Below are positions 23,422 to 55,424 of a stretch of DNA of 64,000 bases, in pieces. Origin of the DNA: Owenia fusiformis (taxonomy: Eukaryota > Annelida > Polychaeta > Sabellida > Oweniidae); contig CAIIXF020000008.1 of assembly GCA_903813345.2 (NCBI GenBank), positions 32,326,867 to 32,390,866 of the forward strand, read 5' to 3'. The position numbers and the translations under genes are program-made. Positions within the stretch are counted from its first letter, which is position 1; each line of letters begins with the position of its first letter. Under the pieces are notes generated by a model. The model was not told the DNA's origin. It did no database searches and was given only the letters and a program-made list of their open reading frames with translations.

Positions 23422-26400
23422 ATGGATCTGCTGAGCTATCTGTCTCCATATGTGAAGGGACTGCTAAATATATGTGACACTCCAGGGGACTTGACTGATG
23501 TACCTGACAGATGCTGTTTAAATGATGATGGTATCCTGGATATGGATTACATTAAACTGCAATTTCCTCCAGGTATCATATGGAAATATATTTTAGTCGC
23601 ACTGATTACTAAAAGTGTCCAATCTTTTTCCAAATCCTTGAATTTGATGAATTATATTTATGTGACATTGAATGATTAGCGACTTATGTTTTACAGACAA
23701 TTTTATATTTTTCAGACCCTTCAAAATTTTTAAGGACTTTTATATGTTGCATGTCCATGATTCAAATTACATTTTTACAACAATTTTTTTTATTCTCTGT
23801 ATCACATCTGTTCTTAGACTGTGTGATGTCAAGTGGTATCCACAATTTCCAGTTGCAGAAGACACTCCGGAATATTTCATCGAGTGTGTTAAGAAACTGT
23901 CCCCTGTATTCAAGCAGATTGAATCATTGCTGAGAACACTTTCACCTGATGAATTCTCTAAGCGTTATGGAGGACATATTGAATGGACATGTGATAAGCA
24001 GGTACTACAATAAACCTGTATATAGTGAACACCTATAAAGCAACTAAAAGTGTTTACTGTAGGTAGGTGTTCACTAAAGAGAGGGGATTTTATACAAGAG
24101 TCAATTAAAATGTGTCTTGAAGTGGTACTCACTAAACATAGGTGTTCACTAGAGAGATATTCACTAAGACTGGTTTTACTGTATATACAATTATGCATGA
24201 CAGTTTTGTGTACAATAGGGAGGTTGAGCTATAAATGAGCTTTCTTAAAAATATGTGTCCTAACCTCTCTTGTACAGGTATGTGTGAAAAAAGCTAACGT
24301 TAAAGTAACCCTAAAACAGTGATAATAATAGGCTTGCACCCACCAGAGAAACCATTTGCACCAAAATGAAAGTGAGAAAATTGAAATATTTTGACATTTG
24401 GTCTAAATTATTGAAATTAAGATTTTTCACCTACTTGATAAAAATCCAGAGAGAATTAATTAACACTATAAAATATCTAATAATTTACATATTTTTTATT
24501 TACTACATATTTTAGAAAGTGCTACAATGTCACTCATTGCTATTGAAGCCAGAAAGCTGCAGTGTATTACCAATCTTGCTGAACACATTACTGCTTGAGA
24601 GATCATTGGGAGATGTAGGTACATATACTGTATGTAGTCAATGTGCAAATGTACAATTTCAAAATTAGATTCATGTATGTAGTCAGGTCCGTAGCAAGGA
24701 TTTCGAAGGGGGCTCACTTTTTTAAAAAATCCACGGGGGGCTCACTTTTGAAAAGTGCCAGAATGGTGAAAAACTGCATAATTTTGAAAGGATACTCAAA
24801 CCCTCCATCCCCCTGTGGCTCCAAGCCTGGTAGTCTATGTGTAAATAACATTTTCAAAATTATTGCCAGATGACCTTATAATCAAAGCATTAAAACAAAG
24901 AACTGTGAACCTTAATTAGACATGCTTTTGCAAAAAAACTTAGAAAATTACATTTGTACGTCAAGTTACTCTGGTGTTTAGATAATCATTTTTGTTAAAA
25001 TGTTTACAATGTTCCACTCATTTATATAACATGCCTATATTATTGCAGCTCTACATGTTGGAGGGGAAACAGTGTCCCTCCATGTTGAAAGATCTCCTTG
25101 TCACGGCAGAGTTAACACAGTTGCTAGGTGACACTATGGTGAGTTAAACCAACTTTTTATTGCATTTTTCAAAGTGCTTACTTTCCAATAACTTGTGCTG
25201 CTTTGTGTGTGGTTGTATGGGTCAGCACCATATAAATCTTGTTATCAAAATTCAAGGTAAAAAGCTTATCCTTTTAACTATTTAAGATACAAGAGCAGAC
25301 TAATGAGAAGATCTGATTAGGTTTTGGGCATGATGGGTAAATTATGTGGTAGCCATTTTGCTCTTTAAAGCGTGATATTTATCACTGTGTGTTTTGCTAT
25401 AGTACCTCAAAGCACGGACTTATGAAGGAATATACTCCTTGGGTTACCTATTGAATTTCTTGTGATTGTTGTGAAAAATGGCTTTTCTAAATAAATAAAT
25501 TGAAAAATTGGTGTGTATCTTTTCTTTCAGTATTTAAACACTTTGTGAATATTATTGAGTTTATTTTCATGTGGGTTCTCCCCCAATTTTCACAATGGAC
25601 ACAAAAAATGTGATGATCTTGCCATAATTCTTTTTGTTTTATTATGTTGTTTGCAGGTCAGACTATTACGGGTACTACTAGGTCCCCCTATATCTCTAAA
25701 TCTGCGTAATGTGGTATGGCATGGTTTTGCCGGGCCGTCTGATATTCACAAAAGGTAAATATGTGTTTTGTACAAATCTGCATATAACTGTTAGACATAT
25801 TTATGAGATTTTATATTTGCTGCATCATATGGAATGAATATACATGTTCTATTTTAGCTGGTGAGTTAACTTTGCTTTTCAGTGTTTTGTGAGTAGCCAT
25901 TCAGAGCTGTCATTCAATGTCTGGTGAATGGCACCACACCAGATGTTGAATGATAGCTAACTAGACATTGAATGACAGCTGTATTATTGTATGTGGTCGC
26001 CGGGTTGGCCTAGTGGTTAAGGCATTGGTCTGAAAAGCAGGAAGTCTGGCTTCAAGCTGAAAAGTAGAGGTCTTGGGTTCAAACCCAGGTCACAGCACTT
26101 CTTGTGATTTGTCTTTGACCTATGACTGCTGACCTATACCGGCGATTACTAGAGTGCTGCTAACTCGATAAAAGGCTGGCGCTGGCTAGAATTGTCTATG
26201 GTTCTAGCCAGGATAAAGATACCAGTTCTTCAACTCGACAATGGGAAGAACTGCTCTACCTAACTGACTAATATGTCATGATATGACATCTAAAAGAGTC
26301 GATAAAAGATATATATATGACAGTTGAACAGACATTGAATGACAGATCATCAGACATTGAATGGCAGCGCATCAGACATTGAATGACCGCTTATCAGACA

Positions 26401-29400
26401 TTGAATGAGAGCTCACCAGATATTGAATGACAGCTCATCAGACATTGAATGACAGCTCATCAGACATTGAATGACAGCTCATCAGACATTGAATGGCAGC
26501 GCATCAGACATTGAATGACCGCTTATCAGACATTGAATGACAGCTCACCTGATATTGAATGACAGCTCATCAGACATTGAATGACAGCTCATCAGACATT
26601 GAATGACAGCTCATCAGACATTGAATGACAGCTCATCAGACATTGAATGACAGCTCATCAGACATTGAATGACAGCTCATCAGACATTAAATGACAGCTC
26701 ATCAGACATTAAATGACAGCTCATCAGACATTGAATGGCAGCTCATCAGACATTGAATGACAGCTCACCAGACATTGAATGACAGCTCACCAGACATTGA
26801 ATGACAGCTCATCAGACATTGAATGACAGCTCACCAGACATTGAATGACAGCTCATCAGACATTGAATGACAGCTCATCAGACATTGACTGACAGCTCAT
26901 CAGACATTGAATGACAGCTCATCAGACATTGAATGACAGCTCACCAGACATTGAATGACAGCTCATCAGACATTGAATGACAGCTCAACAGACATTGAAT
27001 GACAGCTCATCAGACATTAAATGACAGCTCACCAGACATTGAATGACAGCTCATCAGACATTGAATGGCAGCTCATCAGACATTGAATGACAGCTCAGAC
27101 ATTGGATGACAGCTCATCAGACATTGAATGGCAGCTCATCAGACATTGAATAACAGCTCATCAGACATTGAATGACAGCTCTTTTATTGTATGACAGCTC
27201 ACCAGACATTGAATGACAGCTCATCAGACATTGAATGGCAGCTCATCAGACATTGAATAACAGCTCATCAGACATTGAATGACAGCTCTTTTATTGTATG
27301 ACAGCTCACCAGACATTGAATGACAGCTCATCAGACATTGAATGGGAGCGCATCAGTTATTATTTCATTTCACTTTACATGTTTTACTGTACTTTGATAG
27401 GCATGGCTATATGCTGTTGATGGTCACGGTGACCATTGGTTCAATATTGGGAGAGAAAGCACTCAGCATTCCACACAGAGAGTACATTGACATAAAAGAC
27501 TCACATTATTTAGCCATGCCAGGTAGAGTATAAGCATGATTAGTTATAGACATGTTTAACTAACTTATTAACCTTTTTAGTTACCAAAGTGACAAGGTAA
27601 CTAGTATATAGTCACATAGTTTAACTATATTTATCCACAAATTAGGTTATGAAATGTGCAAAGTGGGCTAATGACTCTTCTGCATTTACTAATTAATAAG
27701 TGATTATTCTATATTAGAAAGTGCTCTCATAGCTAAGACTAAGGGGCTGGGTCAATATTTTAATGTCCATCAAAAAATGTAAGGATTAACGTATGTAAGG
27801 GGGGGGGGGATAAAAGCAATCTAATAAGGTGACAGACATTGATTTTTAGTTTCACTGGGTTTCGTCTCCTTTAATTTCTGGTTTGACAGCATGGGATGAT
27901 CACAAAGATACTCAACAGATGTATAAACATAATTTGAAATATGTTGTTTATAGCATTATCAGATATTGTATTCTCAGGGGTTGTACTTTTACACCACATG
28001 CAAATTAACATTTTGTCTCATTTACACCATGCATGGATCAAATTTTGACTTTCGCTAGAAGGGGGGATGGGGGGATTAAGACCTAACAAAATTAATTATG
28101 TTTTTTGACGGACATTAAAATATTGACCCGGCCCCTAAGAGGTTCTAAGAAGCCTCCTTGTGACATATTGTTATGGTCTCCATTTTTTGTGGAGGCAGTT
28201 GGTGATCGGCGGTTGGTGATTGGCTGTTGGCAATAGGTGGTTGGCGTCTGTAAGAAATTCCTAAAACTTCCAATAACTTAACAAATACTGTTTACTGACT
28301 TCATTTTTTTCAAAATCATTTACAAGTTTTCGGAAGTTCAAATCTGACTTTATATATAAGATTTGACATTCAATGACCTTTTCAAGGTAAAAAAATGTTA
28401 ACAAAGGTCAGAAGTTCAAATCTGACTTTAGATTTGAGATTTGACCTTCAATGGCCTTCTCAAGGTCAAAAAAGGTCAAAAAGGTATTTTTTCAAATTGC
28501 TTCAAATTGACCACATTTAATGATACAAACTCTCATGATTTCCAAATATTTCCAATTATCAATCTTCACATCCATGCATTTTATTTTCCTTTCGTGTTTA
28601 TTAAAAAGAGAATAATAAATAACTAAGTGCCAATCTGTTGAAATTTTGTTTTTATTTCAGAAAGAATAATGACAACAAACATATTATTATCATATCAAAT
28701 ATAGCTGTCATTCCAAATTCATTCATTCATGATACGTGCATATGTGTCAGGTCAAATTCAAATATTTGTTTCATTATATGATTGTCAAATCAAAACAGCA
28801 AATATTTTTCCATTGACAGTGAAAGGTGAGTTCTGTTTGAAAATGTACAGTAGAACCTGAATATTCTGAATGCCATTGGGACTGACCAAAAGTGTTCAGA
28901 TTGGCAGGTGTTCACATTTCAAAGTTTTTTTAACATACTAATCTATGGCAGATTAAAAATGGGACCTCAAAGAAGTGTTCACATTGAGGGGTGTACATAT
29001 AAGAGAGGTGTTCAGATATATACACGTTTTACTGTACATTTGAGTAGATAAAATATGCACACTTAATCTCTGAGTATATAAAAACAGAAAATATTGAGTA
29101 TGAATTAAATCAAAGGGATAAGAAAATAAATGACATATATGTCAATTACAAAAAAGACTTCAAACACAAAACTCAATATTCAGTTTTTATATGAATACCT
29201 CGCCTTTAATAATTCACCCTGTTCAGACTGCGCTATATGAATACAAGCGGTGTGGATACTATGTTGGCACAGTGCGGATATTACAGTCATTTTTGAATTT
29301 TTATTTGTGATATTTCACAAACTAAGGCATGTCGGCATACATGATATCAGCACCACTTATTTCGGCATAGCACAGTCTGTATAGGGTGAAACTGAAATAC

Positions 29401-35400: not shown

Positions 35401-38400
35401 CCTCATAAAAAGACGATACCTCTCGATCATCTCATGATCATCGTAAATATCCAATGGATGTGTTCTGTCGCGAAATAATCTTGGTCTTACGAGATGCTGT
35501 CTGCGGTTCACCGCTATCATCGCCATTTTGTTTTACGGTGTCTCAGACGACTGATAATGGCGGGAATTATAACATTGCGATTCATTGATAGCAATTTTAG
35601 ATGAAATATAGAAAATATTCTTCCATTATTTAAGACGACTTTAGACCCTTATTATCTCGTCAGAACACATGAAATTACGATTTTTTTTAAATCGAATGTT
35701 GGTTAGTATACCGAAAAACGTTGTATTAAAATAGCAGATAATTCGGAGAACGCTAAACGCATTTAATTAAAACATAAAGCAACCCTTAATATTGCGACTG
35801 TATTGCGGCTGGTTGAGGGTAGTCGCAATTATATGACGCTATTAATGCGATTGAATTGCTAAGTCGCAATCGCACTTTGATTGTGAATAAGAATTTTAGC
35901 GATTTTTGCGATGGCGATTGCGATGTCGCAATCGCATAGGATGCGACACATTGTGAATAAGGCCTCTGGGTAGTCAAGAGGTTAAATAAAATTATATATA
36001 ATAGCTATTCTTTGAATCCATTCACTTTATTTCCAGGCATAGATAAATTAGATGAAATTACCTTCAAAGAAGTTATTCGCAATAGTGACTTTATTCCGCA
36101 TATTATGAAGACAAATTGGTTTGAGGCTATAGCTCATTTCACAGCACGGAGGTAAGAAGCCATTCAAATATTGATGCCAATTATGATATGAATTAGTGTT
36201 TAAACCATTATTGTTTTGTCACTAAGAGGAATATCATTAGTATTATTGGCAATAGGCAAAATAAAATGAAAATAAGCAAAAAAATATTAGATTATTTGTG
36301 TATATGCATTTCTATTTGTTGTTTAACAAAATATCAAATTTGTCGATCATAGTGAATCATCCATCTACCTGTCACCATTGCGTTATATCTGTCTTACTTG
36401 CTGTTCTTGTTTTTTGAGCAAAATTAACAGATTTATATCTATTGTTTATCCAAATAATAGTGAATCCCCAAATTGACATGAACATATGTGTTTTTACATT
36501 ACATCCTTCTTCCTGTATTTACACTATAGACCACAAGTCGTGACATATTATTATGTGTCCAACTTTTTTATGGACGATGTTTGGCATTTAGAGTTTGGTG
36601 GGTGGTGTTTGGTGTTTGGCAACTGTGACAAATGGCAGGTTGTAATATTTTCTAGTTTATGATGTGTCTATGCCACAGTATTATCGACTGCCCGGAGAGA
36701 GTACAATGTATGATATACAATGTGTATGTTCCAGATATGACAACTATGTTGTGCTACTTGTCCCCTTACTAGAGCACAGTATGAGGTGTGTCTATGCCAG
36801 TGTGAACAACTGCCCAGAGAGAGTACAATGTACGATATACAATGTGTATGTTCCAGATATGACAACTGTGTTGTGCTACTTGTCCCTTTACTAGAGCATA
36901 GTATGAGATGTGTCTATGCCAGTGTGAACAACTGCACTGAGAGAGTACAATGTATGATGTACAATGTGTATGTTCCAGATATGACAACTGTATTGTGCTA
37001 CTTGTCCCCTTACTAGAGCATAGTATGAGATGTGTCTATGCCAGTGTTAACAACTGCACTGAGAGAGTACAATGTATGATGTACAATGTGTATGTTCCAG
37101 ATATGACAACTGTGTTGTGCTACTTGTCCCCTTACTAGAGCACAGTATGAGATGTGTCTATGCCAGTGTTAACAACTGCCCAGAGAGAGTACAATGTATG
37201 ATATACAATGTGTATGTTCCAGATATGATGACTGTGTTGTGCTACTTGTCCCCTTACTAGAGCATAGTATGAGATCTGTCTATGCCAGTGTGAACAACTG
37301 CCCAGAGAGAGTACGATGTATGATATACAATGTGTATGTTCCAGATATGATTACTGTGTTGTGCTACTTGTCCCCTTACTAGAGCATAGTATGAGATGTG
37401 TCTATGCCAGTGTGAACAACTGCCCTGAGAGAGTACAATGTAAGATATGCAATGTGTATGTTCCAGATATGATTACTGTGTTGTGCTACTTGTCCCCTTA
37501 CTAGAGCATAGTATGAGATGTGTCTATGCCAGTGTGAACAACTGCACTGAGAGTACAGTGTATGATATACAATGTGTATGTTCCAGATATGACAACTGTG
37601 TTGTGCTACTTGTCCCCTTACTAGAGCACAGTATATGATGTGTCTATGCCAGTGTGAACAACTGCCCAGAGAGAGTACAATGTATGATATACAATGTGTA
37701 TGTTCCAGATATGACAACTGTGTTGTGCTACTTGTCCCTTTACTAGAGCTCAGTATGAGATGTGTCTATGCCAGTGTTAACAACTGCACTGAGAGAGTAC
37801 AATGTATGATATACAATGTGTATGTTCCAGATATGACAACTGTGTTGTGCTACTTGTCCCCTTACTAGAGCACAGTATGAGATGTGTCTATGCCAGTGTT
37901 AACAACTGCACTGAGAGAGTACAATGTATGATATACAATGTGTATGTTCCAGATATGATGACTGTGTTGTGCTACTTGTCCCCTTACTAGAGCATAGTGT
38001 GAGGTGTGTCTATGCCAGTGTAAACAACTGCCCTGAGAGAGTACAGTGTATGATATACAATGTGTATGTTCCAGATATGACATCTGTGTTGTGCTACTTG
38101 TCCCCTTACTAGAGCACAGTATGAGATGTGTCTATGCCAGTGTTAACAACTGCCCTGAGAGAGTACAATGTAGGATATACAATGTGTATGTTCCAGATAT
38201 GACAACTATGTTGTGCTACTTGTCCCCTTACTAGAGCACAGTATGAGATGTGTCTATGCCAGTGTTAACAACTGCACTGAGAGAGTACAATGTATGATAT
38301 ACAATGTGTATGTTCCAGATATGATGACTGTGTTGTGCTACTTGTCCCCTTACTAGGGCATAGTATGAGATGTGTCTATGCCAGTGTGAACAACTGCCCT

Positions 38401-41400
38401 GAGAGAGTACAATGTATGATATACAATGTGTATGTTCCAGATATGACAACTGTATTGTGCTACTTGTCCCCTTACTAGAGCACTGTATATGATGTGTCTA
38501 TGCCAGTGTTAACAACTGCCCTGAGAGAGTACAATGTATGATATACAATGTGTATGTTCCAGATATGATGACTGTGTTGTGCTACTTGTCCCCTTACTAG
38601 AGCACAGTATGAGATGAGTCTATGCCAGTGTTAACAACTGCCCTGAGAGAGTACAATGTATGATATACAATGTGTATGTTCCAGATATGATAACTGTATT
38701 GTGCTACTTGTCCCCTTACTAGAGCATAGTATGAGGTGTGTCTATGCCAGTGTGAACAACTGCCCCGGGAGAGTACAATGTATGATATACAATGTGTATG
38801 TTCCAGATATGACAACTATGTTGTGCTACTTGTCCCCTTACTAGAGCACAGTATGAGATGTGTCTATGCCAGTGTGAACAACTGCACTGAGAGAGTACAA
38901 TGTATGATATACAATGTGTATGTTCCAGATATGACAACTGTGTTGTGCTACTTGTCCCCTTACTAGAGCACAGTATGAGATGTGTCTATGCCAGTGTGAA
39001 CAACTGCACTGAGAGAGTACAATGTATGATATACAATGTGTATGTTCCAGATATGACAACTGTGTTGTGCTACTTGTCCCCTTACTAGAGCACAGTATGA
39101 GATGTGTCTATGCCAGTGTTAACAACTGCCCTGAGAGAGTACAATGTATGATACACAATGTGTATGTTCCAGATATGACATCTGTGTTGTGCTACTTGTC
39201 CCCTTACTAGAGCACAGTATGAGATGTGTCTATGCCAGTGTGAACAACTGCCCTGAGAGAGTACAATGTATGATATACAATGTGTATGTTCCAGGTATGA
39301 CAACTGTGTTGTGCTACTTGTCCCCTTACTAGAGCACAGTATGAGATGTGTCTATGCCAGTGTGAACAACTGCACTGAGAGAGTACAATGTATGATATAC
39401 AATGTGTATGTTCCAGATATGACAACTGTGTTGTGCTACTTGTCCCCTTACTAGAGCACAGTATGAGATGTGTCTATGCCAGTGTAAACAACTGCCCTGA
39501 GAGAGTACAGTGTATGATATACAATGTGTATGTTCCAGATATGACAACTGTGTTGTGCTACTTGTCCCCTTACTAGAGCATAGTATGAGATGTGTCTATG
39601 CCAGTGTGAACAACTGCACTGAGAGAGTACAATGTATGATATACAATGTGTATTAGGGTGGTCCAAAATATGGCGAAAAACCAACTTTGTTTCAGATCAT
39701 CTTCCTCATTTCACTTACTGTTGTCCATGACCTAAAACACATGCACACCAAATTTTAAGACCCAAATCACATGGGAAATTTACCCACGCTTCGACTGAAA
39801 ATTCGGTTATTTCATGATTTTTTGCTATTTTCGATAAATTGTCATCTCCCTTTTCCTGGTATAATATGTTCTATTTTTTCATAATAAACATTTTTGTAGG
39901 ACTCTTTATTACTTCATAATACTAGGAACCCATACACCAAATGTTGAGACCCAAATCCCATGGGAAATTTACCCACGCTTCGACTGAAAAATTCGGTTAT
40001 TTCATGATTTTTTGCTATTTTCGATAAATTGCCATCTCCATTTTCCTGGTATAAAATGGTAGATGTCTTTTCATAATAAATATTCTTGGATGACTCTTTA
40101 TTACTTCATAATACTTAGGAACCCATACATCAAATTTTGAGACCCAAATCCCATGGGAAATTTACCCACGCTTCGACTGAAAAATTGGGTTATTTCATAT
40201 ACAATACAATACATCTCTATTTTCCTGGTATTATATGTTTCTATTTTTTATAATAAATATTTTGGGAGGACTCTTTATTACTTCATAATACGAGGAACCC
40301 ATACCCCAAATATGCACCAAATTTTGAGACCCTGGCCCCATGAGAAATTAATTCATGCTTCAACCAAAAATTTGTGATTTTCTGCGAATTTTCTCCTATT
40401 TTCAATAGATCAACATTAATCTTTTATTTAGATTTTAAACATTTTAGGAGGACATTAATACGTTCTTAATACTAGGAACCCATACATTTAATGTGTACCA
40501 AATGTTTAGACCTGAACCCCATGGGAAATTCACGTTTGCTTTGATCATATACTTTTGATTTTTGTCGTTTAGAGCGCCATATCATTGTTGTGTGATGTGC
40601 AATTTGTAATAAATTGTATTACACGTTGTCTTAATTATCCTGTTTGGCCTTACATACGTTACATCGTGAAAGATGGTTATAAAGTACTTTAAGGTAATTC
40701 CTTATTTTCAGTTTTAATGGCTTTAATGGCTTCCTAATTGGAGCCCCGTGTTTTTTCAGGAACACATAACTCATTCCATTCAGATGCACAAACAGTGTAT
40801 AAACATAGCACATAGTACATTATAGAAAATTACTAACCATCAGCTAATAATCTAAATACATATTTGAACTCAGTGTAAAATTGAAAGAGCTGACCAAGTA
40901 TAGAATGAGTTCCAGAAATAACATTGGACTCCACTTAAAATTTCTGAACATACAGAATTACCTTAAGTGTTTCTCATTGCTCTTCCTATCTTCTACATTG
41001 TGTACTTTCAGGGCATGAACATTTTCAGAGAAATGACAAAGCTCAGTGGAAGCTCAAATCCCTTGAAGATTTGGTACAGGCTTACTGGTTACAACAGAGA
41101 CCATGCCATTGATACATTGATCAATCAAAAAATCATTTCTCCAAAGAAAATCAAATTTGATATTTGACCTTACCCTGCAAAGATGTGAGAAAGAATATGA
41201 CATCTCACACAAATCCAAACAAAGTCCTGTGATGTATCCCTACTGAAACCAACAAACCAAATCTTCAAGGCATTTGAGTTGCTGTTGAGTCATCACTTCT
41301 TAATATTAACCACAGTATATAAATGTACAAGTAAAAGATCCTAAATTTTCCCCAAACTACTGAATTTGTCGCCTTTCAATAAGACTTAAAGTCATGATAT

Positions 41401-44400
41401 TTAGGTGTTTCTTTGGATTAAGAAGGAATTACCATAATGTTTATTAACATATTATGCCCCTAAAACAGACATCATAAGCACCAGTTTTCAGTCAAAGCAT
41501 GGGTAACGTTCTCATTAGATTTGGGTCTCAAAATTTGGTGGATATTTGGTGTATGGGTTTTTAGTATTATGAAGTAATAAAGAGTCCTCAAAAATGTTTA
41601 TTATAAAAACATATCGTACCAGGAAAATGAAGACAGCAATTTACTGAAAATCGGAAAAAATGTGAAAATCACAATTTTTCAGTCAAACCATGGGTAAATT
41701 TCCCATGGGATTTGGGTCTCAAAATGTATGGGTTCCTAGTAAGTAATAAAGAGTCATCCAAAAATATTTATTATGAAAAAATAGAAACATATTATACCAG
41801 GAAAATGGAGACAGTAATCTATTGAAAATCGGACAAAACTGTGAAAATCACAATTTTTCAGTCAAAGCATGGGTAAATTTCACATGGGATTTGGGTCTCA
41901 AAATTTGGTGTTTGGGCTCCTAGTATTATTAAGTAATAAAGAGTCCTACAAAAATGTTTATTATGAAAAAATAGAAACATTTTATACCAGGAAAAAGGAG
42001 ATGGCAATTTATCGAAAAAAGCAAAAAAATCATGAAATAACCGAATTTTTCAGTCAAAGCGTGGGTAAATTTCCCATGGGATTTGGGTCTCAAAATTTGG
42101 TGTGCAGGTGTTTTAGGTCATGGACAACAGTAAGTCAAATGAGGAAAATGATCCGAAAGAAAGTTGGTTTTTCGCCATATTTTGGACCACCCTAATGTGT
42201 ATGTTCCAGATATGATAACTGTGCTACTTGTCCCCTTACTAGAGCATAGTATATGATGTGTCTATGCCAGTGTTAACAACTGCCCTGAGAGAGTACAATG
42301 TATGATATACAATGTGTATGTTCCAGATATGACAACTGTGTTTTGCTACTTGTCCCCTTACTAGAGCATAGTATGAGATGTGTCTATGCCAGTGTTAACA
42401 ACTGCCCTGAGAGAGTACAATGTATGATATACAATGTGTATGTTCCAGATATGACAACTGTGTTTTGCTACTTGTCCCCTTACTAGAGCATAGTATGAGA
42501 TGTGTCTATGCCAGTGTGAACAACTGCACTGAGAGTACAGTGTATGATATACAATGTGTATGTTCCAGATATGACAACTGTGTTGTGCTACTTGTCCCCT
42601 TACTAGAGCATAGTATGAGATGTGTCTATGCCAGTGTGAACAACTGCCCAGAGAGAGTACAATGTATGACATGCAATGTGTATGTTCCAGATATGATTTC
42701 TGTGTTGTGCTACTTGTCCCCTTACTAGAGCACAGTATGAGGTGTGTCTATGCCAGTGTGAACAACTGCACTGAGAGAGTACAATGTATGATATACAATG
42801 TGTATGTTCCAGATATGACAACTGTATTGTGCTACTTGTCCCCTTACTAGAGCACAGTATGAGATGTGTCTATGCCAGTGTGAACAACTGCACTGAGAGA
42901 GTACAATGTATGATATACAATGTGTATGTTCCAGATATGATGACTGTGTTGTGCTACTTGTCCCCTTACTAGAGCACAGTATGAGATGTGTCTATGCCAG
43001 TGTTAACAACTGCCCTGAGAGAGTACAATGTATGATATACAATGTGTATGTTCCAGATATGACAATTGTGTTGTGCTACTTGTCCCCTTACTAGAGCACA
43101 GTATGAGATGTGTCTATGCCAGTGTGAACAACTGCCCCGGGAGAGTACAATGTATGATATACAATGTGTATGTTCCAGATATGACAACTGTGTTGTGCTA
43201 CTTGTCCCCTTACTAGAGCACAGTATGAGATGTGTCTATGCCAGTGTTAACAACTGCCCTGAGAGAGTTCAATGTATGATATACAATGTGTATGTTCCAG
43301 ATATGATAACTGTGTTGTGCTACTTGTCCCCTTACTAGGGCATAGTATGAGATGTGTCTATGCCAGTGTGAACAACTGCCCTGAGAGAGTTCAATGTATG
43401 ATATGCAATGTGTATGTTCCAGATATGGCAACTGTGTTGTGCTACTTGTCCCCTTACTAGAGCACAGTATGAGATGTGTCTATGCCAGTGTTAACAACTG
43501 CACTGAGAGAGTACAATGTATGATAAACAATGTGTATGTTCCAGATATGACAACTGTGTTGTGCTACTTGTCCCCTTACTAGAGCACAGTATGAGATGTG
43601 TCTACGCCAGTGTGAACAACTGCACTGAGAGAGTACAATGTATGATATACAATGTGTATGTTCCAGATATGATGACTGTGTTGTGCTACTTGTCCCCTTA
43701 CTAGAGCACAGTATGAGATGAGTCTATGCCAGTGTTAACAACTGCCCTGAGAGAGTACAATGTATGATATACAATGTGTATGTTCCAGATATGACAACTG
43801 TATTGTGCTACTTGTCCCCTTACTAGAGCATAGTATGAGATGTGTCTATGCCAGTGTGAACAACTGCACTGAGAGAGTACGATGTATGATATACAATGTG
43901 TATGTTCCAGATATGATGACTGTGTTGTGCTACTTGTCCCCTTACTAGAGCACAGTATGAGATGTGTCTATGCCAGTGTGAACAACTGCCCTGAGAGAGT
44001 ACAATGTATGATATACAATGTGTATGTTCCAGATATGATAACTGTGTTGTGCTACTTGTCCCCTTACTAGAGCACAGTATGAGATGTGTCTATGCCAGTG
44101 TGAACAACTGCCCTGAGAGAGTACAATGTATGATATACAATGTGTATGTTCCAGATATGACAACTGTGTTGTGCTACTTGTCCCCTTACTAGAGCACAGT
44201 ATGAGATGTGTCTATGCCAGTGTTAACAACTGCCCAGAGAGAGTACGATGTATGATATACAATGTGTATGTTCCAGATATGATGACTGTGTTGTGCTACT
44301 TGTCCCCTTACTAGAGCACAGTATGAGATGTGTCTATGCCAGTGTGAACAACTGCCCAGAGAGAGTACGATGTATGATATACAATGTGTATGTTCCAGAT

Positions 44401-47400
44401 ATGATGACTGTGTTGTGCTACTTGTCCCCTTACTAGAGCACAGTATGAGATGTGTCTATGCCAGTGTGAACAACTGCCCTGAGAGAGTACAATGTATGAT
44501 ATACAATGTGTATGTTCCAGATATGATAACTGTGTTGTGCTACTTGTCCCCTTACTAGAGCACAGTATGAGATGTGTCTATGCCAGTGTGAACAACTGCC
44601 CTGAGAGAGTACAATGTATGATATACAATGTGTATGTTCCAGATATGATAACTGTGTTGTGCTACTTGTCCCCTTACTAGAGCACAGTATGAGATGTGTC
44701 TATGCCAGTGTGAACAACTGCCCCGGGAGAGTACAATGTATGATATACAATGTGTATGTTCCAGATATGACAACTGTATTGTGCTACTTGTCCCCTTACT
44801 AGAGCACAGTATGAGATGAGTCTATGCCAGTGTTAACAACTGCCCTGAGAGAGTACAATGTATGATATACAATGTGTATGTTCCAGATATGACAACTGTG
44901 TTGTGCTACTTGTCCCCTTACTAGAGCACAGTATGAGATGTGTCTATGCCAGTGTTAACAACTGCACTGAGAGAGTACAATGTATGATATACAATGTGTA
45001 TGTTCCAGATATGACAACTGTGTTGTGCTACTTGTCCCCTTACTAGAGCACAGTATGAGATGTGTCTATGCCAGTGTTAACAACTGCCCTGAGAGAGTAC
45101 AATGTAGGATATACAATGTGTATGTTCCAGATATGACAACTATGTTGTGCTACTTGTCCCCTTACTAGAGCACAGTATGAGATGTGTCTATGCCAGTGTT
45201 AACAACTGCACTGAGAGAGTACAATGTATGATAAACAATGTATATGTTCCAGATATGACAACTGTGTTGTGCTACTTGTCCCCTTACTAGAGCATAGTAT
45301 ATGATGTGTCTATGCCAGTGTTAACAACTGCCCTGAGAGAGTTCAATGTATGATATACAATGTGTATGTTCCAGATATGATAACTGTGCTACTTGTCCCC
45401 TTACTAGAGCATAGTATATGATGTGTCTATGCCAGTGTTAACAACTGCCCTGAGAGAGTTCAATGTATGATATACAATGTGTATGTTCCAGATATGATAA
45501 CTGTGTTGTGCTACTTGTCCCCTTACTAGAGCACAGTATGAGATGAGTCTATGCCAGTGTTAACAACTGCCCTGAGAGAGTACAATGTATGATAAACAAT
45601 GTATATGTTCCAGATATGACAACTGTGTTGTGCTACTTGTCCCCTTACTAGAGCATAGTATGAGATGTGTCTATGCCAGTGTTAACAACTGCACTGAGAG
45701 AGTACAATGTAAGATATGCAATGTGTATGTTCCAGATATGATTACTGTGTTGTGCTACTTGTCCCCTTACTAGAGCATAGTATGAGGTGTGTCTATGCCA
45801 GTGTTAACAACTGCCCTGAGAGAGTACAATGTAGGATATACAATGTGTATGTTCCAGATATGACAACTGTGTTGTGCTACTTGTCCCCTTACTAGAGCAC
45901 AGTATGAGATGAGTCTATGCCAGTGTTAACAACTGCCCTGAGAGAGTACAATGTATGACATGCAATGTGTATGTTCCAGATATGACAACTATGTTGTGCT
46001 ACTTGTCCCCTTACTAGAGCACAGTATGAGATGTGTCTATGCCAGTGTTAACAACTGCACTGAGAGAGTACAATGTATGATATACAATGTGTATGTTCCA
46101 GATATGACAACTGTGTTGTGCTACTTGTCCCCTTACTAGAGCACTGTATATGATGTGTCTATGCCAGTGTTAACAACTGCACTAAGAGAGTACAATGTAT
46201 TATATACAATGTGTTTGTTCCAGATATTACAACTGTGTTGTGCTGCTTGTTCCCTTACTAGAGCACAGTATGAGGTGTGTCTATGCCAGTGTTAACAACT
46301 GCCCTGAGAGAGTACTAACTGCCGAATCAGCTGTACACTTTACTACTTTTGACGAGGTACATATTAAACCACAACAAGCAAAAATATAATGAAGTTATTA
46401 GGGTAGTCAAAAAAGTTGTCCTCAACAATTTTTGCATCATGTATTTTTAGAAGTAAGTTGATATCAGTGGCAAATTATTTGTTTGTGATAATGACTGTAA
46501 TCCTGTTTATTGACCAATTTGGAATTTGGTAACAGAACATGTAGCATTCTATATTAATTAAAACCGATGTGTTTAGATCACATGGTGAGCCCCATAGAAT
46601 CACCAACTCGTCTGTTTGTCCATCAGTCTGTCAACAGTTCTTTATGAAATCTGAGACTGAATTGTGGTAATTTACACCACTTTTTATAAGGATATAGCTC
46701 CTACTTTTGCTTGTTTTGGACAACTCAGCATTTTTACTATACTATAAGTAATTGATTTATAGTATTCATAACTTTCCAGAGGACACGTATGTCCTAATTT
46801 CATATTTTGTTTTGTTTTAGATACTGAGCCCAGTGTTACAAGACGGGTCCATAAATAAACTCAGAGAATGTCTAGGAGATGGCTGTTTGGTAATTTGAAT
46901 AAATACTATGAAAAAGTGTGAGCAATGAATATATGGATGTTAATTAGTATGTATACCTACTAGATATTTTTTGCAAAATATTCTAACACTCTATCATTAT
47001 ATGGGCAGGGCCCCCCATATCTATGGCAACTACCTCACCAACGTTTTACAGCACAATGTTATTAATTCTGACATTTCTATATGTCACCACCAAAAATGGT
47101 GACATATTGTTATGGTCTCCAACTTTGTAATGGTGCTAGGGAGTTAGCGTCTGGCAGTCTAAATTCAGCATCTGTAACAAATGGCAGTTGGTGACATTTT
47201 GCATGTTAATGCCTTGTTAATTCCTATAATTTATTTATTGCCGAACCACCATTTAAAGCCACACTTATTTTTAGATCCTGGAAATAAGCCACCAAACAAG
47301 GCATCTAAGTGCACACTGTTCATTCTCATTGGCTTAAGTTCATACTTATTTTCAGATGGTTTTCATGGATTATCTAGTGTATCCTGAAGGTGTTAGATTC

Positions 47401-50400
47401 CGGGATAGACTCAGTCATGGTCAGTTTGACCTCTCTACTATAGGACAACATGTGGCGGCATCTATACTAGCCATCAGTCTCACAACAGCTGCCAGGTTTC
47501 TGCCCGAGGATGCTAATGTAACCAAGGTATTCTATTTAAAGGTTCCATCTAAAGTTAACGACTATTGTATTTTTCAATGTTTAGATATTTTGCTTGGGGT
47601 CTAAAAGAATGGATGTTATTTACTAATAGAAGGTTTTATTTAGAAGTTTATATTGAGACTAACCTGGGTTGTTTACATTTGGAGGCTACTGTTCTACTTC
47701 CATTGTTAGTTGAGCTAGATTACATTTTCATGGTCTGGCTCATTTTTTGTCCCATTTTTAATCCGCCATAGATTACCATTGTTAAAAAACCTAGAAATGG
47801 GAACAATTGCCATATGATCTGTACACTTTTGGCTAGTCCCAGTTGCATTTAAATAAGACAAGTTTTACTGTGCTCATCTCTATGCAGGTTTTGTTTATTT
47901 TCAGAGTGATACCTTGGCATCACTTATATCAGATATGAACTGTTATGAATCAAGATTCCATCCAATATCATTGCTCAAACGAGACATTCTTGATGCAGGA
48001 CACCAGCTGTCAGAGTGGCAATGTATCCAACACATCATAGAATCCTGTGATACAAAACTGTAAGCGCATCTCATGGTATTTTGAATACAAGGAGTCCAAT
48101 AAAGTGAACAATTAAAGAAATAAAATAATAAAACGTCCATGCATGCTTATTCATAATAGCAATCTTGAATAAAGAAACTTTAGCATCAATTTTGCAAAAG
48201 TACAATAGTATAGTGAGGGGTGAAAAATTGAGGGCTACTTGTAAGGTCATACTCTATGTACACCATGATATGAGCTATGCATTTTTGAAATAACTTCTTA
48301 TTTTTTGTTGAAACTTGGAAACCTCATGAATTCAGAGACAGTTGCATTTAAATGAATAAAGACTTTGATTTTGATAAAAGCTGATCAACCATTATATCTA
48401 ATTTTGATCATTGTACTTTTTACTTTTTCAGGAAATCACTAGATAGAGACAAAGAAACAATTTGTAAAGCAATAACCACCATTTGTAGAAAACTCAAGGA
48501 ATATCCTTGTCTGAAATGACTCGAGTTGGCCCAATTGATACACCCCTACCTCAGCTTAGAGGCCTTAATCAGTGTTTGTGGACATCACAAAGTGGCCACT
48601 CTCTATCGTTATCAACAAGTCAAACTCATAAATGATGCAGTACAATCGTGCTCTACTCCAAATGGACCAAATGAATTTTTGAATGTTGATCATTCTAGTC
48701 ATGATTGTGATAAAACTGATAAAACTCATTCTGCAGCATATTCAGAAACCTGTGATAAAGCTGGCTGTGATACCAATGGCTGTGATACCGCTAGATCAAA
48801 CTGCTGTGATAAGATTGATAGTGATAGCATTAAACCTGGCCCCACAAAGACAACTTGTGATATTGTCAGGTCTGACTGTTGTGATGATGTTAAAGATAAC
48901 ATTGAAACTAATAGTGGCGAGACATATATGAGTGATAATTCTCTGGGACATGTCAATCACATAAGTAATAATTCTAACCACGCAAATGATATCAATCAAA
49001 GCAAAATAAAAGCTCTCCAAAGAGATCAATCTAGAAACTCTAGTCAGTTAAGGAGCAATCCTTATGAACATTTTAACGGACCATCTGAAGAGGAGGTGAT
49101 TCGGCTATGTAGAAATATATTGTGTTCATGTAAGGCGGTCAGTGTACAGATCCAGGGAGTGCTGCAGACCAGGAGGTCACAGTTGGAGGCGAAACAACTT
49201 CATTCAAGACAAAGAAACACATATAATACTATGTTACAAATGTAAGTAATCAACATGTGATCCGATTCAAGCATCTGTGTTACTCCATATACCCCATTTT
49301 TGAAAACAAAAGTTGATTTTAAAAAATTGACAAAAGTTATTTTATTTTGCCATTAGGTCCATCTTCAGAATTTTTATCGTACCTAACAAGAGGTACGATA
49401 TTGTAGTCAGCTTGACAGGTGGCGGGCGGCGTCTCACTTTTCATCTTGTCTACAGGTTTCCAGCCAAACCATTTGAGGGATTCATCTGAAATTTTCAGGG
49501 ATGTTTCTACGTATCAATGTCAAGACTTGATTAGTTTTTGGCCATTGTGAGTTAATTTTAAGGTGGCCATTTTGGATTTTCCGTCCTAAAATCTTCACTT
49601 TCAAGACTTGTCTACAGGTTTCCAGCCAAACCATTTGAGGGATTCATCTGAAATTTTCAGGGATGTTTCTACATATCAACGTCATGAACTGATTGGTTTT
49701 TGGGCATTCTGGGTAAATTTTAAGGTGGCCATTTTGGATTTTCTGTCCTAAAATCTTCACTTTCAAGACTTGTCTACAGGTTTCCAGCCAAACCATTTGA
49801 GGGATTCATCTGAAATTTTCAGGGATGTTTCTACGTATCAATGTCAAGAACTGATTAGTTTTTGGCCATTGTGAGTAAATTTTAAGGTGGCCATTTTGGA
49901 TTTTCCGTCCTAATATCTTCACTTTCAAGACTTGTCTACAGATTTTCAGCCAAACCATTTGAGGGATTCATCTGAAATTTTCAGGGATGTTACTACATAT
50001 CAACGTCAAGAACTGATTGGTTTTTGGGCATTCTGGATAATTTTTAAGGTGGCCATTTTGGATTTTCCGTCCTAAAATCGTCACTTTCAAGACTTGTCTA
50101 CAGGTTTCCAGCCAAACCATTTGAGGGATTCATCTGAAATTTTCAGGGATGTTTCTACGTATCAATGTCAAGAACTGATTAGTTTTTGGCCATTGTGAGT
50201 AAATTTTAAGGTGGCCATTTTGGATTTTCCGTCCTAAAATCTTCACTTTCAAGACTTGTATACAGATTTTCAGCCAAACCATTTGAGGGATTCATCTGAA
50301 ATTTTCAGGGATGTTTCTACATATCAATGTCAAGAACTGATTGGTTTTTGGGCATTCTGGGTAATTTTTAAGGTGGCCATTTTGGATTTTCCGTTCTAAA

Positions 50401-51500
50401 ATCTTCACTTTCAAGACTTGTCTACAGGTTTCCAGCCTAACCATTTGAGGGATTCATCTGAAATTTTCAGGGATGTTTCTACGTATCAATGTCAAGAACT
50501 GATTAGTTTTTCGCCATTGTGAGTAAATTTTAAGGTGGCCATTTTGGATTTTCCGTCCTAAAATCTTCACTTTAAAGACTTGTCTACAGGTTTCCAGCCA
50601 AACCGTTCAAATTTTTACATATGTTACACAGTGATAAGTTCTAGAGCTGATTAACTTTTCTGCGGCCATCTTGCTTTCTTGGTCAACAAGACCACAATGC
50701 TGTGTTTTAGGTACGATATTGTTAACGTCTGTGCCTTGTTAAACCTTTTGCCTTTGATACCTAGAAACTGAACTTTTTGAAATAAGAATGATATTGTTGC
50801 CTGTATTCGTTGGTAAAAGCATAAAAAGCAGCGCAATATCAATTAATGTGTCTTAAGTGCACATATTCTCAAGTGTTTCTAGATTCTAAAAGCATTTTAT
50901 TGCAAGAGGATTTTACTATAAATCCCATATAGGCATGTAGTGTCATTGGGTTAAATCCGATCTGTTTCTGTCCTGAAATCCTCTTTTTAATTTCTTTTTC
51001 TAGAATACCAGTATTATCACTAGGGTTGAGGCTGACATTTCTACTGACTTTGCACTTTTACCTCTCACTGGACACTTCTACTATATGCAATAAAACTAGC
51101 ATCAAGTGAGTGTCTTCCATTGTGCATGTATCACATCAGATGAATTTCCTCTCTAAAATATCTCATTGTTCAAATTTTATATGCAGATGCCAAGGGGCCC
51201 ATTAGCTCTGTTTGAGAAAGAATTTTGCAGCTGAATTTCAAAATGGCTTGGATTATACTTGTACGTTTGTCTACCCCTAAAATAAAGCACTGAATAGTAT
51301 ACTCCAGAAACATACTCGACTAAGAAGTTCCAAGTCCTTTTAAGAGTATCTATGATTATTTGATTTGCAGAGCTCTAAAGATGGCGCTCCAGTACTGTGA
51401 GAAACTGCTCACACTAACTCACATAGAGAAAAATAGATGGCAGGAGAGTGTACTTTTGACAACAACATTAGGAAATGGAATCAATGATTTGCTGAACTAG
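23422..51500 (+). CDS. ERMARD: ERMARD, ER membrane-associated RNA degradation protein
   Basis: Fourteen coding exons: 23422-23572, 23853-24001, 24516-24614, 25049-25138, 25657-25754, 27401-27522, 36037-36151, 46224-46356, 46821-46889, 47356-47526, 47905-48059, 48432-49241, 51004-51105, 51371-51500. All have GT-AG borders with matching phases; the total is 797 codons plus stop (human about 678). Landmarks shared with vertebrate ERMARD include [71 protein letters not shown] and the hydrophobic [20 protein letters not shown], probably a membrane segment near the C-terminus. Human ERMARD is linked to ER RNA turnover and to neuronal migration defects. Exon 12 is enlarged by a Cys/Asp-rich insert and holds one in-frame TGA (48517-48519). 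Introns 5, 6, 7 and 12 hold large tandem repeats. Candidate polyadenylation signal: 51580-51585. Confidence 0.95.
24008..24181. mobile_element. CAGTARAACC-family MITE
   Basis: Starts CAATAAACCTGTATATAGTG and ends CTGGTTTTACTG, with TA on both sides (24006-24007 and 24182-24183). It begins 7 bases after the end of ERMARD exon 2. Confidence 0.7.
24684..24830. repeat. CCGTAGC-type dispersed repeat
   Basis: GTCCGTAGCAAGGATTTCGA, GGGGGCTCACTTTT twice. It resembles 60396-60560 (CCCGTAGCCAGGGA, AGCTCCCCCT). No ends were defined. Confidence 0.35.
25905..27350. repeat. 22-bp minisatellite in ERMARD intron 5, ~46 main copies
   Basis: The main array at 26331-27350 is built of GACATTGAATGACAGCTCAT plus CA (22 bases), with variants such as ATGGCAGC, TCACCAG and TCTTTTATTGT. 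Before it, at 25905-25926, one unit lies inverted (AGCTGTCATTCAATGTCTGG), followed by two direct copies and a SINE. The array ends about 50 bases before exon 6. Confidence 0.92.
25993..26325 (+). mobile_element. tRNA-derived SINE
   Basis: The head resembles a tRNA gene: A box TGGCCTAGTGG (26006-26016) and B box GGTTCAAACCC (26076-26086). An unrelated body of about 240 bases follows (GGCTGGCGCTGGCTAGAATT), ending in GATAAAAGATATATATATG. The A-to-B distance is longer than in a tRNA, and there is no proper cloverleaf, so this is a SINE rather than a working tRNA gene. It sits at the left edge of the 22-bp minisatellite. Confidence 0.75.
27742..28135. mobile_element. 394-bp MITE in ERMARD intron 6
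   Basis: Ends AGGGGCTGGGTCAATATTTT and AAAATATTGACCCGGCCCCT are inverted repeats of about 36 bases, continuing through AATGTCC(A/G)TCAAAAAA. The interior holds G-runs. No clear target duplication. Confidence 0.75.
28158..28255. mobile_element. GTGACAT-family MITE, partial copy
   Basis: TTGTGACATATTGTTATGGT matches the left part of the copy at 47082, in the same orientation. The right end is altered by TTGGTGAT/TTGGCG stutter. Confidence 0.45.
28335..28480. repeat. ~75-bp tandem duplication
   Basis: AGAAGTTCAAATCTGACTTT with GATTTGAC(A/C)TTCAATG(A/G)CCTT occurs twice. Confidence 0.6.
28848..29034. mobile_element. CAGTARAACC-family MITE
   Basis: CAGTAGAACCTGAATATTCT to TACACGTTTTACTG, flanked by TA on both sides (28846-28847 and 29035-29036). 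Confidence 0.75.
29213..29390. mobile_element. 178-bp MITE
   Basis: TTCACCCTGTTCAGACTGCG and its mirror ending CAGTCTGTATAGGGTGAA. Non-coding, in ERMARD intron 6. Confidence 0.65.
29665..30178. repeat. ~30-bp tandem repeat, about 17 copies
   Basis: Units such as GATTTTGAAAATAGGCTTCC plus CACCCACTTA. The period is about 30, so the minus strand shows open decapeptide repeats (FQNLHWV), which are a by-product. It lies between the ERMARD intron 6 MITEs and the insulin A-chain exon. Confidence 0.85.
30285..32473 (-). CDS. Insulin-like peptide precursor, nested in ERMARD intron 6
   Basis: Two exons on the minus strand: 32473-32248 (start ATG 32473; an earlier in-frame ATG is at 32515) and 30442-30285, joined in phase 1, 127 residues. 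Order: hydrophobic signal peptide ([14 protein letters not shown]), B chain [20 protein letters not shown] with [13 protein letters not shown], cleavage site GKR, connecting peptide interrupted by the phase-1 intron usual for insulins, a DKR site, a second DKR, then QKR and A chain [20 protein letters not shown] ending CAY. The B-chain spacing C-x11-C is canonical. The extra Cys before the B core and in VCECC match molluscan insulin-related peptides and predict a fourth disulfide. The last A-chain spacing is nine residues rather than the usual eight. Expected role: secreted growth or metabolic hormone acting on a receptor tyrosine kinase (family knowledge). The intron holds three transposon remnants. 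Confidence 0.93.
30680..31312 (-). mobile_element. Deleted Tc1/mariner-type element with transposase 3' end
   Basis: Inverted ends of about 90 bases start CAGGGTGTCAAATGGC and are flanked by TA (30678-30679 and 31313-31314). On the minus strand the remnant encodes [20 protein letters not shown], which resembles the SPDLNPIEN...W segment around the third catalytic residue of Tc1/mariner transposases. It ends [16 protein letters not shown], like the usual ...AKGGHTKY tail. The first two thirds of the transposase are missing. It lies in the insulin-like gene intron. Confidence 0.82.
31329..31601. mobile_element. Palindromic mariner-type MITE
   Basis: CAGGGTAGACCAAGAAAACC and the reverse complement of its right end CAGGGTGGGCCAAAAAACAA, with TA on both sides. 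The interior is also palindromic (TGCCATGTATTATATATCAT and ATGATATATAATACATGGCA). It is 15 bases from the previous element. Confidence 0.8.
32055..32200. mobile_element. CAGTARAACC-family MITE
   Basis: Left end AGTCCTGTCTAATCTGAATA is degenerate; right end ATACAGGTTTTACTG precedes TA. It shares AAAAGTGTT and AGGTGTTCACATTTCAA with the copy at 28848. Confidence 0.6.
32516..34147. other. ERMARD intron 6, insulin upstream region
   Basis: No gene or repeat family recognised. Regulatory sequence of the insulin-like gene probably lies just above 32515, but no core promoter could be assigned. Confidence 0.35.
34148..35965. mobile_element. 1.8-kb DNA element with CTG target duplication
   Basis: Ends AGGCCTTATTCACAAAGC and its mirror TTGTGAATAAGGCCT, with CTG on both sides (34145-34147 and 35966-35968). 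The terminal parts are dense in GCGATTGC/GCAATCGC words that can pair. Inside, GGGTATATAAATGG (near 34533) looks like a TATA box ahead of a repetitive stretch (GGAACTGGGAACGGA, ATGGATTGGAAACATGGAAA twice). No transposase is recognisable. Confidence 0.72.
36536..36655. mobile_element. GTGACAT-family MITE abutting the exon-8 array
   Basis: AGTCGTGACATATTATTATG to CTGTGACAAATGGCAGG, related to the copy at 47082. The 122-bp array begins within about 10 bases of its end. Confidence 0.5.
36660..46223 (+). repeat. 122-bp satellite made from the ERMARD intron 7/exon 8 junction, ~59 copies
   Basis: Two blocks, 36660-39653 (about 25 units) and 42195-46223 (about 34 units), are split by a hAT-like insertion. 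Each unit equals the last 30 bases of intron 7 (ending TGTGTATGTTCCAG) plus the first 92 bases of exon 8 (ATATGACAACTGTGTTGTGC ... GAGAGAGTAC). In the exon frame it reads [29 protein letters not shown], which is the true ERMARD sequence. The period is 122, not a multiple of three, and every unit hits a TAG when read through, so the array itself is not coding. A few units are 117-120 bases. Copies vary mainly at TGCACTGAG/TGCCCTGAG/TGCCCAGAG/TGCCCCGGG and GACAAC/GATGAC/GATAAC/GATTAC. Confidence 0.97.
39654..42194. mobile_element. 2.5-kb hAT-like foldback element inside the array
   Basis: Ends TAGGGTGGTCCAAAATATGG and CCATATTTTGGACCACCCTA, near-identical for over 130 bases. The 8-mer ATGTGTAT, part of the satellite unit, is duplicated at 39646-39653 and 42195-42202. 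Eight-base duplications and TAGGG ends are typical of hAT. The left arm holds about five tandem units of about 188 bases (GACCCAAATCCCATGGGAAA); the right arm holds about four in inverted order. The unique centre (40590-41450) has only short frames, none recognisable as a transposase. Confidence 0.9.
46224..46356 (+). CDS. ERMARD: ERMARD exon 8, the only complete copy
   Basis: It begins after GTGTTTGTTCCAG and encodes [28 protein letters not shown] and then [14 protein letters not shown] before a GTACAT donor. The first 92 bases are the amplified unit; the last 41 (46316-46356) are unique and conserved in vertebrate ERMARD. Its acceptor has TTTGTTCCAG where array copies have TATGTTCCAG, a slightly better pyrimidine tract. 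Phase 2 in, phase 0 out, matching exons 7 and 9. Confidence 0.95.
47082..47207. mobile_element. GTGACAT-family MITE, fullest copy
   Basis: ATGTCACCACCAAAAATGGT to GGCAGTTGGTGACATTTTGC, in the opposite orientation to the CCDC61 copies. In ERMARD intron 9. Confidence 0.65.
47790..47872. repeat. CAGTARAACC-family fragment
   Basis: TGTACACTTTTGGCTAGTCC and AGACAAGTTTTACTG match the right part of the family. Truncated, in ERMARD intron 10. Confidence 0.45.
49376..50722. repeat. ~163-bp satellite-bearing element in ERMARD intron 12, 8 units
   Basis: Eight tandem units starting GTCTACAGGTTTCCAGCCAA and containing TTTGAGGGATTCATCTGAAA and GTGGCCATTTTGGATTTTCC. They are bracketed by ATCGTACC/GGTACGATATTG at the left and GGTACGATATTG at the right. 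Units alternate slightly (GGCCATTGTGAG and GGGCATTCTGGG), hinting at a two-unit higher-order period. It is related to 54627-55424. Confidence 0.88.
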
Positions 51501-54626: not shown

Positions 54627-55424
54627 TTATCGCACCCTTAGGTGCTATATTGTAATCAGTTTGCCGGGCGGGCGGGCGTCCCGAATAATCTTGTCTACAG
54701 GATTCCAGCCAAACCGTTTGAGGGATTCATTTGAAATTCTCAGGGATGTTTCTACCTGTGAACGTTTAGAACTGATTAGTTTTTCGGCATTCTGGGTAAA
54801 TGTTAAGGCGGCCATTTTGGATTTTCCGTCCTAAAATCTTGTCTGTCAAGGCTTGTCTACAGGTTTCCAGCCAAACCGTTTGAGGGATTCATTTGAAATT
54901 CTCAGGGATGTTTCTACCTATGAAAGTTTAGAACTGATTAGTTTTTCGGCATTCTGTGTAAATGTTAGGGCGGCCATTTTGGATTTTCCGTCCCAAAATC
55001 TTGTCTGTCAAGGCTTGTCTAGTATGTCTACAGGTTTCCAGCCAAACCGTTTAAGGGATTCATTTGAAATTCTCAAGGATGTTTCTACCTATGAAAGTTT
55101 AGAACTGATTAGTTTTTCGGCATTCTGGGTAAATGTTAGGGCGGCCATTTTGGATTTTCCGTCCTAAAATCTTGTCTGTCAAGGCTTGTCTAGTATGTCT
55201 ACAGGTTTCCAGCCAAACCGTTTAAGGGATTCATTTGAAATTCTCAAGGATGTTTCTACCTATGAAAGTTTAGAACTGATTAGTTTTTCGGCATTCTGGG
55301 TAAATGTTAAGGCGGCCATTTTGGATTTTCCGTCCTAAAATCTTGTCTGTCAAGGCTTGTCTACAGGTTTCCAGCCAAACCGTTTGAGGGATTCATTTGA
55401 AATTCTCAGGGATGTTTCTACCTA
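54627..55424. repeat. ~168-bp satellite-bearing element, 5 units
   Basis: Begins ATCGCACCCTTAGGTGCTAT, then five units GTCTACAGGTTTCCAGCCAA ... GCGGCCATTTTGGATTTTCC. It is the same family as 49376-50722 but a separate subfamily. Two units carry an extra TAGTATG. The 104-residue frame here is repeat-derived. Confidence 0.85.

Follow-up and report, generated by a model that had tools for sequence, protein, structure and literature searches.

An Intronic Minisatellite Probably Born at a Splice Boundary of ERMARD in the Annelid Owenia fusiformis

The gene ERMARD of the annelid Owenia fusiformis carries in its intron 7 a long tandem array of 122-bp units, each made of the final 30 bp of that intron and 92 of the 133 bp of exon 8, counted from the start of the exon. 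Fifty-seven copies of the exon 8 acceptor (here called decoys) thus stand ahead of the true exon. The array is probably a single-locus intronic minisatellite, born by tandem duplication across the ERMARD splice boundary and since carried as a tolerated passenger, with the spliceosome mostly using the last copy. It lies in a 64-kb stretch of the 498-Mb Owenia assembly (C8:32326867-32390866), hereafter the window, to which all positions below refer.

The gene was identified by a match to the DUF4209 domain (2.4e-22), and its homologues occur in molluscs, vertebrates, an echinoderm, cnidarians and others among the 120 protein matches listed of 226. Our ERMARD model has 14 exons between 23422 and 51500 and 797 codons before the final stop, one of which is a TGA; exon 2 was placed at 23853 with the help of a published Owenia protein, P0001, that is discussed below. 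Exon 7 (36037-36151, plus strand) ends in phase 2 at the donor GAG/GTAAGA, where the slash marks the splice point. The true exon 8 (46224-46356, plus strand) ends at GAG/GTACAT, and exon 9 (46821-46889, plus strand) is in phase 0. The preliminary description of this sequence had already named the gene, the exon and the 30 + 92 composition of the unit, and all three were borne out.

Anatomy of the Array

Tandem Repeats Finder reports a period of 122 in two blocks, 36661-39653 (24.5 copies) and 42194-46315 (33.9 copies), with 95% matches. When acceptors are located by anchoring on TTCCAG/(A or G)TAT, 58 of them lie between 36735 and 46224, that is, the 57 decoys and the true exon 8. The 57 spacings between them are 122 bp in 52 cases, 120 bp in two, 117 bp in two and 2,671 bp in one, the last of which holds a transposon. 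TTCCAG is intact at every decoy as well as at the true site and, given the regularity of the spacing, no copy in the array has lost its acceptor.

On the plus strand the left part of the array (36705-39653) contains decoy acceptors 1 to 24, whose first exonic bases run from 36735 to 39539, and its last unit is cut by the transposon; the right part (42195-46223) contains acceptors 25 to 57 (42210 to 46102) and closes with the stretch of intron that directly precedes the true exon 8. At the extreme left, alignment to the consensus reveals a diverged partial unit on the same strand (36656-36704, about columns 46-92). The earlier count of about 59 copies is corrected to 57 decoys, the true exon and one 5' partial that begins at about 36656. 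A dispersed repeat of about 120 bp (36531-36651) adjoins this left edge and has another copy in intron 9 (47090-47200).

Only the last copy reaches past base 92 into the rest of exon 8, as had been proposed: the 20-mer that opens the exon tail occurs once on the plus strand of the window, and among the 58 genome matches to exon 8 a single one covers all 133 bases.

Intronic minisatellites, or variable number tandem repeats (VNTRs), are arrays confined to a single place within an intron, their units of tens to some hundred bases set head to tail, and satellite DNA forms multi-locus or large heterochromatic blocks. The Owenia array consists of head-to-tail units at one intronic locus. The genome matches found for the unit, at least 59, all fall here, in about 7 kb of units, and the earlier label of satellite is loose.

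Exonic Origin and Single Locus

A protein alignment of 22 rows, the window and P0001 among them, shows no gap in exon 8 in any row. Ten of the 30 invariant columns fall within this exon, five of them in the part copied by the array. A search of the genome placed 59 of 59 matches to the unit and 58 of 58 matches to exon 8 in this array (the match counts being lower bounds), and it found one full-length exon 8, at 46224. Because the exon is conserved across animals and no match was found elsewhere in that search, the exon must be the source and the array its derivative. The exon-boundary origin put forward in the preliminary description is supported by these results, including the proposed check that the unit should align with exon 8 of other animals.

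Codon 2 of exon 8 may provide a glimpse of the array's past. In the 20 other proteins this codon specifies Gly (15), Ala (3), Asp (1) or Ser (1); in the Owenia assembly the true exon has Tyr (TAC) and the prevailing state of the array is Asp (GAC), which is present in 56 of the 57 decoys with Gly in the remaining one. Asp is a single step from Gly and Tyr is two, and the array may thus preserve an older state of this codon than the exon does. The founding junction itself can no longer be read, because the array begins on the left with a partial unit that has diverged and that adjoins the dispersed repeat.

Splice Signals and Their Consequences for the Reading Frame

If exon 7 were joined to a decoy and reading continued in its frame, a stop would be encountered within at most 93 residues in all 57 cases, in agreement with the earlier claim; in 43 of them it comes after 53 residues and, in the examples printed, it is the TAG of CTTACTAGAG. 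Each decoy also has a GT at 90, 93 or 95 nt past its acceptor, with a G at +5 in 56 of the 57, and the commonest donor-like form (42 of 57) is AAT/GTATGA. With matrices built from ERMARD's own splice sites the score of this form is 6.35 and that of the true exon 8 donor 6.67. Judged on such signals, the decoys look like complete pseudo-exons. If one of them were included as a cassette ahead of the true exon 8, 55 of the 57 would be predicted to cut the protein short, while the two 93-nt decoys would, by their phase, keep the frame. Those 55 have at the sequence level the layout of a poison exon, with an acceptor and a donor around a segment that brings in a stop. From the donor-like site of a typical unit to the next acceptor there are 27 bp. 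The earlier proposal that the donor at 46357 is the only true one, and that exon definition pairs with it, is not supported in this form, since with a donor-like GT in every decoy exon definition through the true donor alone cannot fully explain the choice of acceptor.

The true acceptor scores 2.38 against a decoy median of 0.33 on a matrix made from 12 sites, and a single decoy, whose upstream bases belong to the transposon, scores at least as high. For ERMARD it is nonetheless a weak site, below 10 of the other 12 acceptors. What sets the last copy apart is its acceptor score, its in-frame onward route and the fact that the donor of the decoy just before it is without the +5 G. Accessibility of the RNA was considered as a further discriminator and dropped: in predicted structures of three stretches the true acceptor was not distinct, 17, 21 and 9 of the 57 decoys being more open.

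Within the true exon 8 there is also an internal donor-like site, GAG/GTGTGT at 46275, that scores 7.45 against 6.67 for the real donor; its GT is present in five of the 57 decoys.

Sequence Variation and the Edges of the Array

The decoys differ from their own consensus in 203 of 6,933 cells. Of the 122 columns 37 are variable and 85 invariant, the mean pairwise difference is 5.6 bases, and there are 52 distinct sequences among the 57 decoy units. The distinct variants in the coding part comprise 12 synonymous, 16 missense and two nonsense changes, where a simple weighting leads one to expect about 25% synonymous, a purely descriptive comparison.

Common variants show almost no linkage. Within units the mean r2 of 18 common variant columns (142 pairs at least 4 bp apart) is 0.025 against 0.018 after permutation, a value that one of 300 permutations reached; neighbouring units are mostly uncorrelated (0.021 against 0.018 expected), column 91 excepted. 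No run of three or four units passed a cut-off of four differences in a search for higher-order blocks. So little linkage is what heavy exchange among units would yield, but it could also be a by-product of polishing a repeat with short reads.

The edges of the array are another matter. On the right, the 132 bp from -40 to +92 of the true acceptor hold six private bases, clustered between -40 and +28, and the other decoys hold nine in 6,811 cells. A Poisson estimate of 3e-8, for a stretch picked post hoc, marks this as a genuine excess. Three of the private changes are intronic and lie in the last decoy unit (46102-46223, plus strand), at columns 83, 100 and 114: CTGAG to CTAAG at -40, G to T at -23 and A to T at -9 relative to the true acceptor. 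The change at -23 also abolishes the +5 G of the last decoy's own donor-like GTATGA. On the left, where there is no exon, five substitutions and one 2-bp insertion are private within 79 bp, and every one of them precedes 36705. It is a general property of tandem arrays that their edges diverge, since exchange seldom reaches them. As the exon-less left edge is at least equally divergent, the divergence at the right needs no selection, and an edge effect suffices to account for the private bases of the last copy. The preliminary description suggested that selection may act through an altered pyrimidine tract. The last unit is indeed alone in having this change, but selection itself finds no support in this comparison.

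The Inserted Transposon

A non-autonomous DNA transposon of 2,541 bp (39654-42194) sits inside the array and went unreported in the preliminary description. Its terminal inverted repeats are about 720 bp long and 84% identical, its longest frame among those printed has 116 aa, and it interrupts one unit of the array with a target site duplication of 8 bp, ATGTGTAT. The genome contains 158 candidate places for the family, 40 of which were scored; 24 further copies match 1-2541 at 96-98% identity, by which measure the inserted element is a member of a low-divergence family. The flanks of three other copies show, by reading, duplications of 8 or 9 bp, of which a script restricted to 8 bp passed one. 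The interrupted unit, at least, is older than the insertion, and the whole array is probably older too.

Origin of the Array and Alternative Explanations

The history that we favor would begin in the Owenia lineage with the tandem duplication of a segment that ran from the tail of intron 7 to base 92 of exon 8. Unequal exchange and conversion would then have enlarged and reshuffled the array until 57 decoys lay ahead of the original exon, and the transposon would have entered one unit thereafter. The private variants at both edges and the well-mixed interior fit such ordinary turnover. In the present gene, exon 7 would mostly be joined to the last copy; we propose that this copy is chosen because a donor within normal exon length continues the frame from it and because its acceptor is marginally better than those of nearly all decoys. 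Most products that did use a decoy would carry early stops, and nonsense-mediated decay would presumably clear them. The array, most likely, is no adaptation and is simply tolerated as a passenger.

Several observations weigh against this account of splice-site choice. Of 723 AGs in stretches beyond the modelled exons about 12% reach the score of the true acceptor, the acceptor matrix is built from 12 sites, and the good donor-like sites within the decoys mean that avoidance of decoys is not explained by the absence of donors. A further one is the sequence of P0001: it reads RRYDNC where the true exon 8 encodes RRYYNC. This published model (342 aa) is the best protein match to the gene (99% identical). 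None of the other matches listed (120 of 226) bears the name Owenia, and the entry represents one member sequence. The model covers exons 1-9, with exon 8 at full length between exons 7 and 9 and no further array peptide, and stops at the end of exon 9. Since one exon 8 locus was found and the Asp is encoded here only in decoys, P0001, if it is a translation of this assembly, must draw part of its coordinates from a decoy. A paralogue or second exon 8 was considered as the source of the Asp and rejected within the reach of the genome search, which found one full-length exon. Among two-piece joins of the right length, none with GT-AG or GC-AG boundaries reproduces P0001; it is reproduced by AT-AG joins, which involve 21 decoys, or by a 7-nt micro-exon with AT-AC boundaries (38075, 39173).

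The published accounts suggest how such a model could come about. The Owenia annotation mapped Trinity transcripts with GMAP, combined Mikado, Augustus and PASA, and was lifted over to the chromosome-scale assembly (PMC9977687), and the placing of false introns between repeats is a known class of error in spliced aligners (PMC10632439). The transcripts may carry an Asp allele of exon 8, with the aligner having borrowed a decoy through a phantom intron to dodge the mismatch; if so, the junction between exons 7 and 8 lies at the expected place. Real use of a decoy is also a possible source of the Asp, and P0001 as evidence is ambiguous.

An adaptive role for the array seems improbable. Under it, the 57 weak pseudo-exons would serve either as poison exons or as decoys for the acceptor, competing for the spliceosome and lowering or regulating productive ERMARD mRNA in a dose set by copy number. 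The retention of an acceptor and a GT donor in every decoy (with +5 G in 56 of 57, and a unit donor at 6.35 versus 6.67) and the truncation predicted for 55 of 57 inclusions are what it would lead one to expect, and in two human studies intronic repeats do bear on exon choice: VNTR length correlates with the skipping of exon 19 in ABCA7 (PMC5954066), and intronic repeats are required for exon skipping in TERT (PMC3948165). The splice motifs, however, show no sign of being better held than the remainder of a unit in which 85 of 122 columns are invariant, an invariant run of 13 bases lying inside the exon copy and that at the acceptor measuring 8; only 27 bp lead from the typical unit donor to the next acceptor; and no Owenia protein with a decoy peptide was found, a weak negative that covers one 105-residue frame and the 120 listed of 226 matches, many of them unnamed. 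The same frame yielded no stand-alone array protein. We think it similarly unlikely that selection marked the last copy, with CTAAG at -40 and the T residues at -23 and -9 strengthening the branch point and the pyrimidine tract. The six private changes in 132 bp (the stretch chosen post hoc), set beside nine in 6,811 cells of the other decoys, are in its favor, as is the gain in acceptor score, about 1.5 units for the change at -9 and about 0.6 for that at -23 on the gene's own matrix. But the functionless left edge is at least as divergent, which poor homogenisation at the edges explains, three intronic changes are too few to show a direction, and predicted RNA pairing does not single out the true site.

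It is quite unlikely, too, that ERMARD is decaying in this lineage or allele and that the array is unconstrained debris. Exon 12 does contain an in-frame TGA (48517-48519), which may reflect a null allele, a base error or decay of the gene, and the published model ends at exon 9; but the frame downstream is open to the expected end, apart from that codon all 14 exons are open and in phase, exon 8 retains the residues that are invariant in the 22-row alignment, and a single stop is compatible with a private null allele or a base error. Less probable still is an assembly artefact in which copy number was inflated, or unit variants were scrambled, by assembly and short-read polishing. The near-zero linkage of variants within and between units is what mis-polishing could give, and polishing did use 10x Illumina reads, according to the assembly report (PMC9977687). 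That report also describes PacBio reads with an N50 of 25.75-30.75 kb, together with Bionano and Hi-C data (PMC9977687); as typical reads exceed the 9.7-kb array, it should have been spanned. The presence within the array of a transposon with its own target site duplication, and the 52 distinct sequences among 57 decoy units, likewise speak against an artefact.

Comparison with Known Systems

The preliminary description knew of no comparable case, but there are near precedents. In the potato RdRp gene an intron was gained by tandem duplication across an intron-exon boundary (PMC4974935). There, as in Owenia, the copied segment is the 3' side of an intron with the 5' side of the next exon, and it includes a putative branch site, a pyrimidine tract and the acceptor (PMC4974935). 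The potato gene has two copies, spliced as a new exon and intron with 106 RNA-Seq reads over the boundary, and recruits a cryptic donor from exon sequence (PMC4974935). The Owenia locus has 58 acceptors, known from their sequence; its donor-like site is part of the copied end of the intron, and the next acceptor typically follows only 27 bp later.

The VNTR in intron 18 of ABCA7 likewise abuts an exon and includes a real splice site, here the donor of exon 18, and a cryptic donor in the array leads to retention of a single unit and a frameshift, in addition to the length-correlated skipping of the next exon (PMC5954066). Its unit is of 25 bp on the donor side, is present in about 12 to 427 copies and is polymorphic in people, and the available part of the report mentions no conserved coding stretch in it (PMC5954066), whereas the Owenia unit has one. 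As for usable copies of the splice site within the units, which characterise the ABCA7 array, the Owenia decoys are candidates, the acceptor motif being kept in 57 of 57. The 38-bp VNTR in TERT intron 6 also affects exon choice, but by RNA pairing more than 1 kb from the junctions, and no splice site in its unit is mentioned in the accessible text (PMC3948165). The gigantic introns of Drosophila kl-3 and kl-5 are similar in that splicing must cross long intronic tandem repeats; they differ in being megabase-sized, and the accessible part of the account does not claim an exon-boundary origin for them (PMC6508621).

No case of dozens of acceptor-plus-coding units ahead of their parent exon was found among the papers listed from the open-access literature, in which phrase searching can miss much. 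The seed event was thus already known in its two-copy form, and the run-on to dozens of copies makes the Owenia locus an unusually clean and extreme case. It indicates that a duplication of a splice boundary can grow to dozens of copies without the other exons of the gene losing their phase. The locus is also a natural experiment on splice-site choice, with 57 near-identical acceptors in cis within one intron, in the correct orientation and with their coding context and donor-like sites. How cells settle on the last of these 58 near-copies would tell scanning, exon-definition and kinetic models apart more sharply than tests with single decoys. Were the array functional after all, it would be a repeat that tunes its parent gene, its copy number setting the amount of productive ERMARD mRNA. 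There is a warning here, too, that at places such as this RNA-guided gene models can mix decoy and true sequence.

Other Features of the Window

ERMARD has further tandem arrays in intron 5 (22-bp unit, 26317-27356) and intron 12 (162-bp unit, 49445-50604), neither of whose units is exon-like by eye; a unit resembling that of intron 12 recurs at 54689-55424. No Rfam families or tRNAs were found in the 64-kb window. Elsewhere in it there are an OPA3-like exon at 3543-3959 and, at 60660-62435, a leucine-rich-repeat frame of 591 residues with internal tandem similarity.

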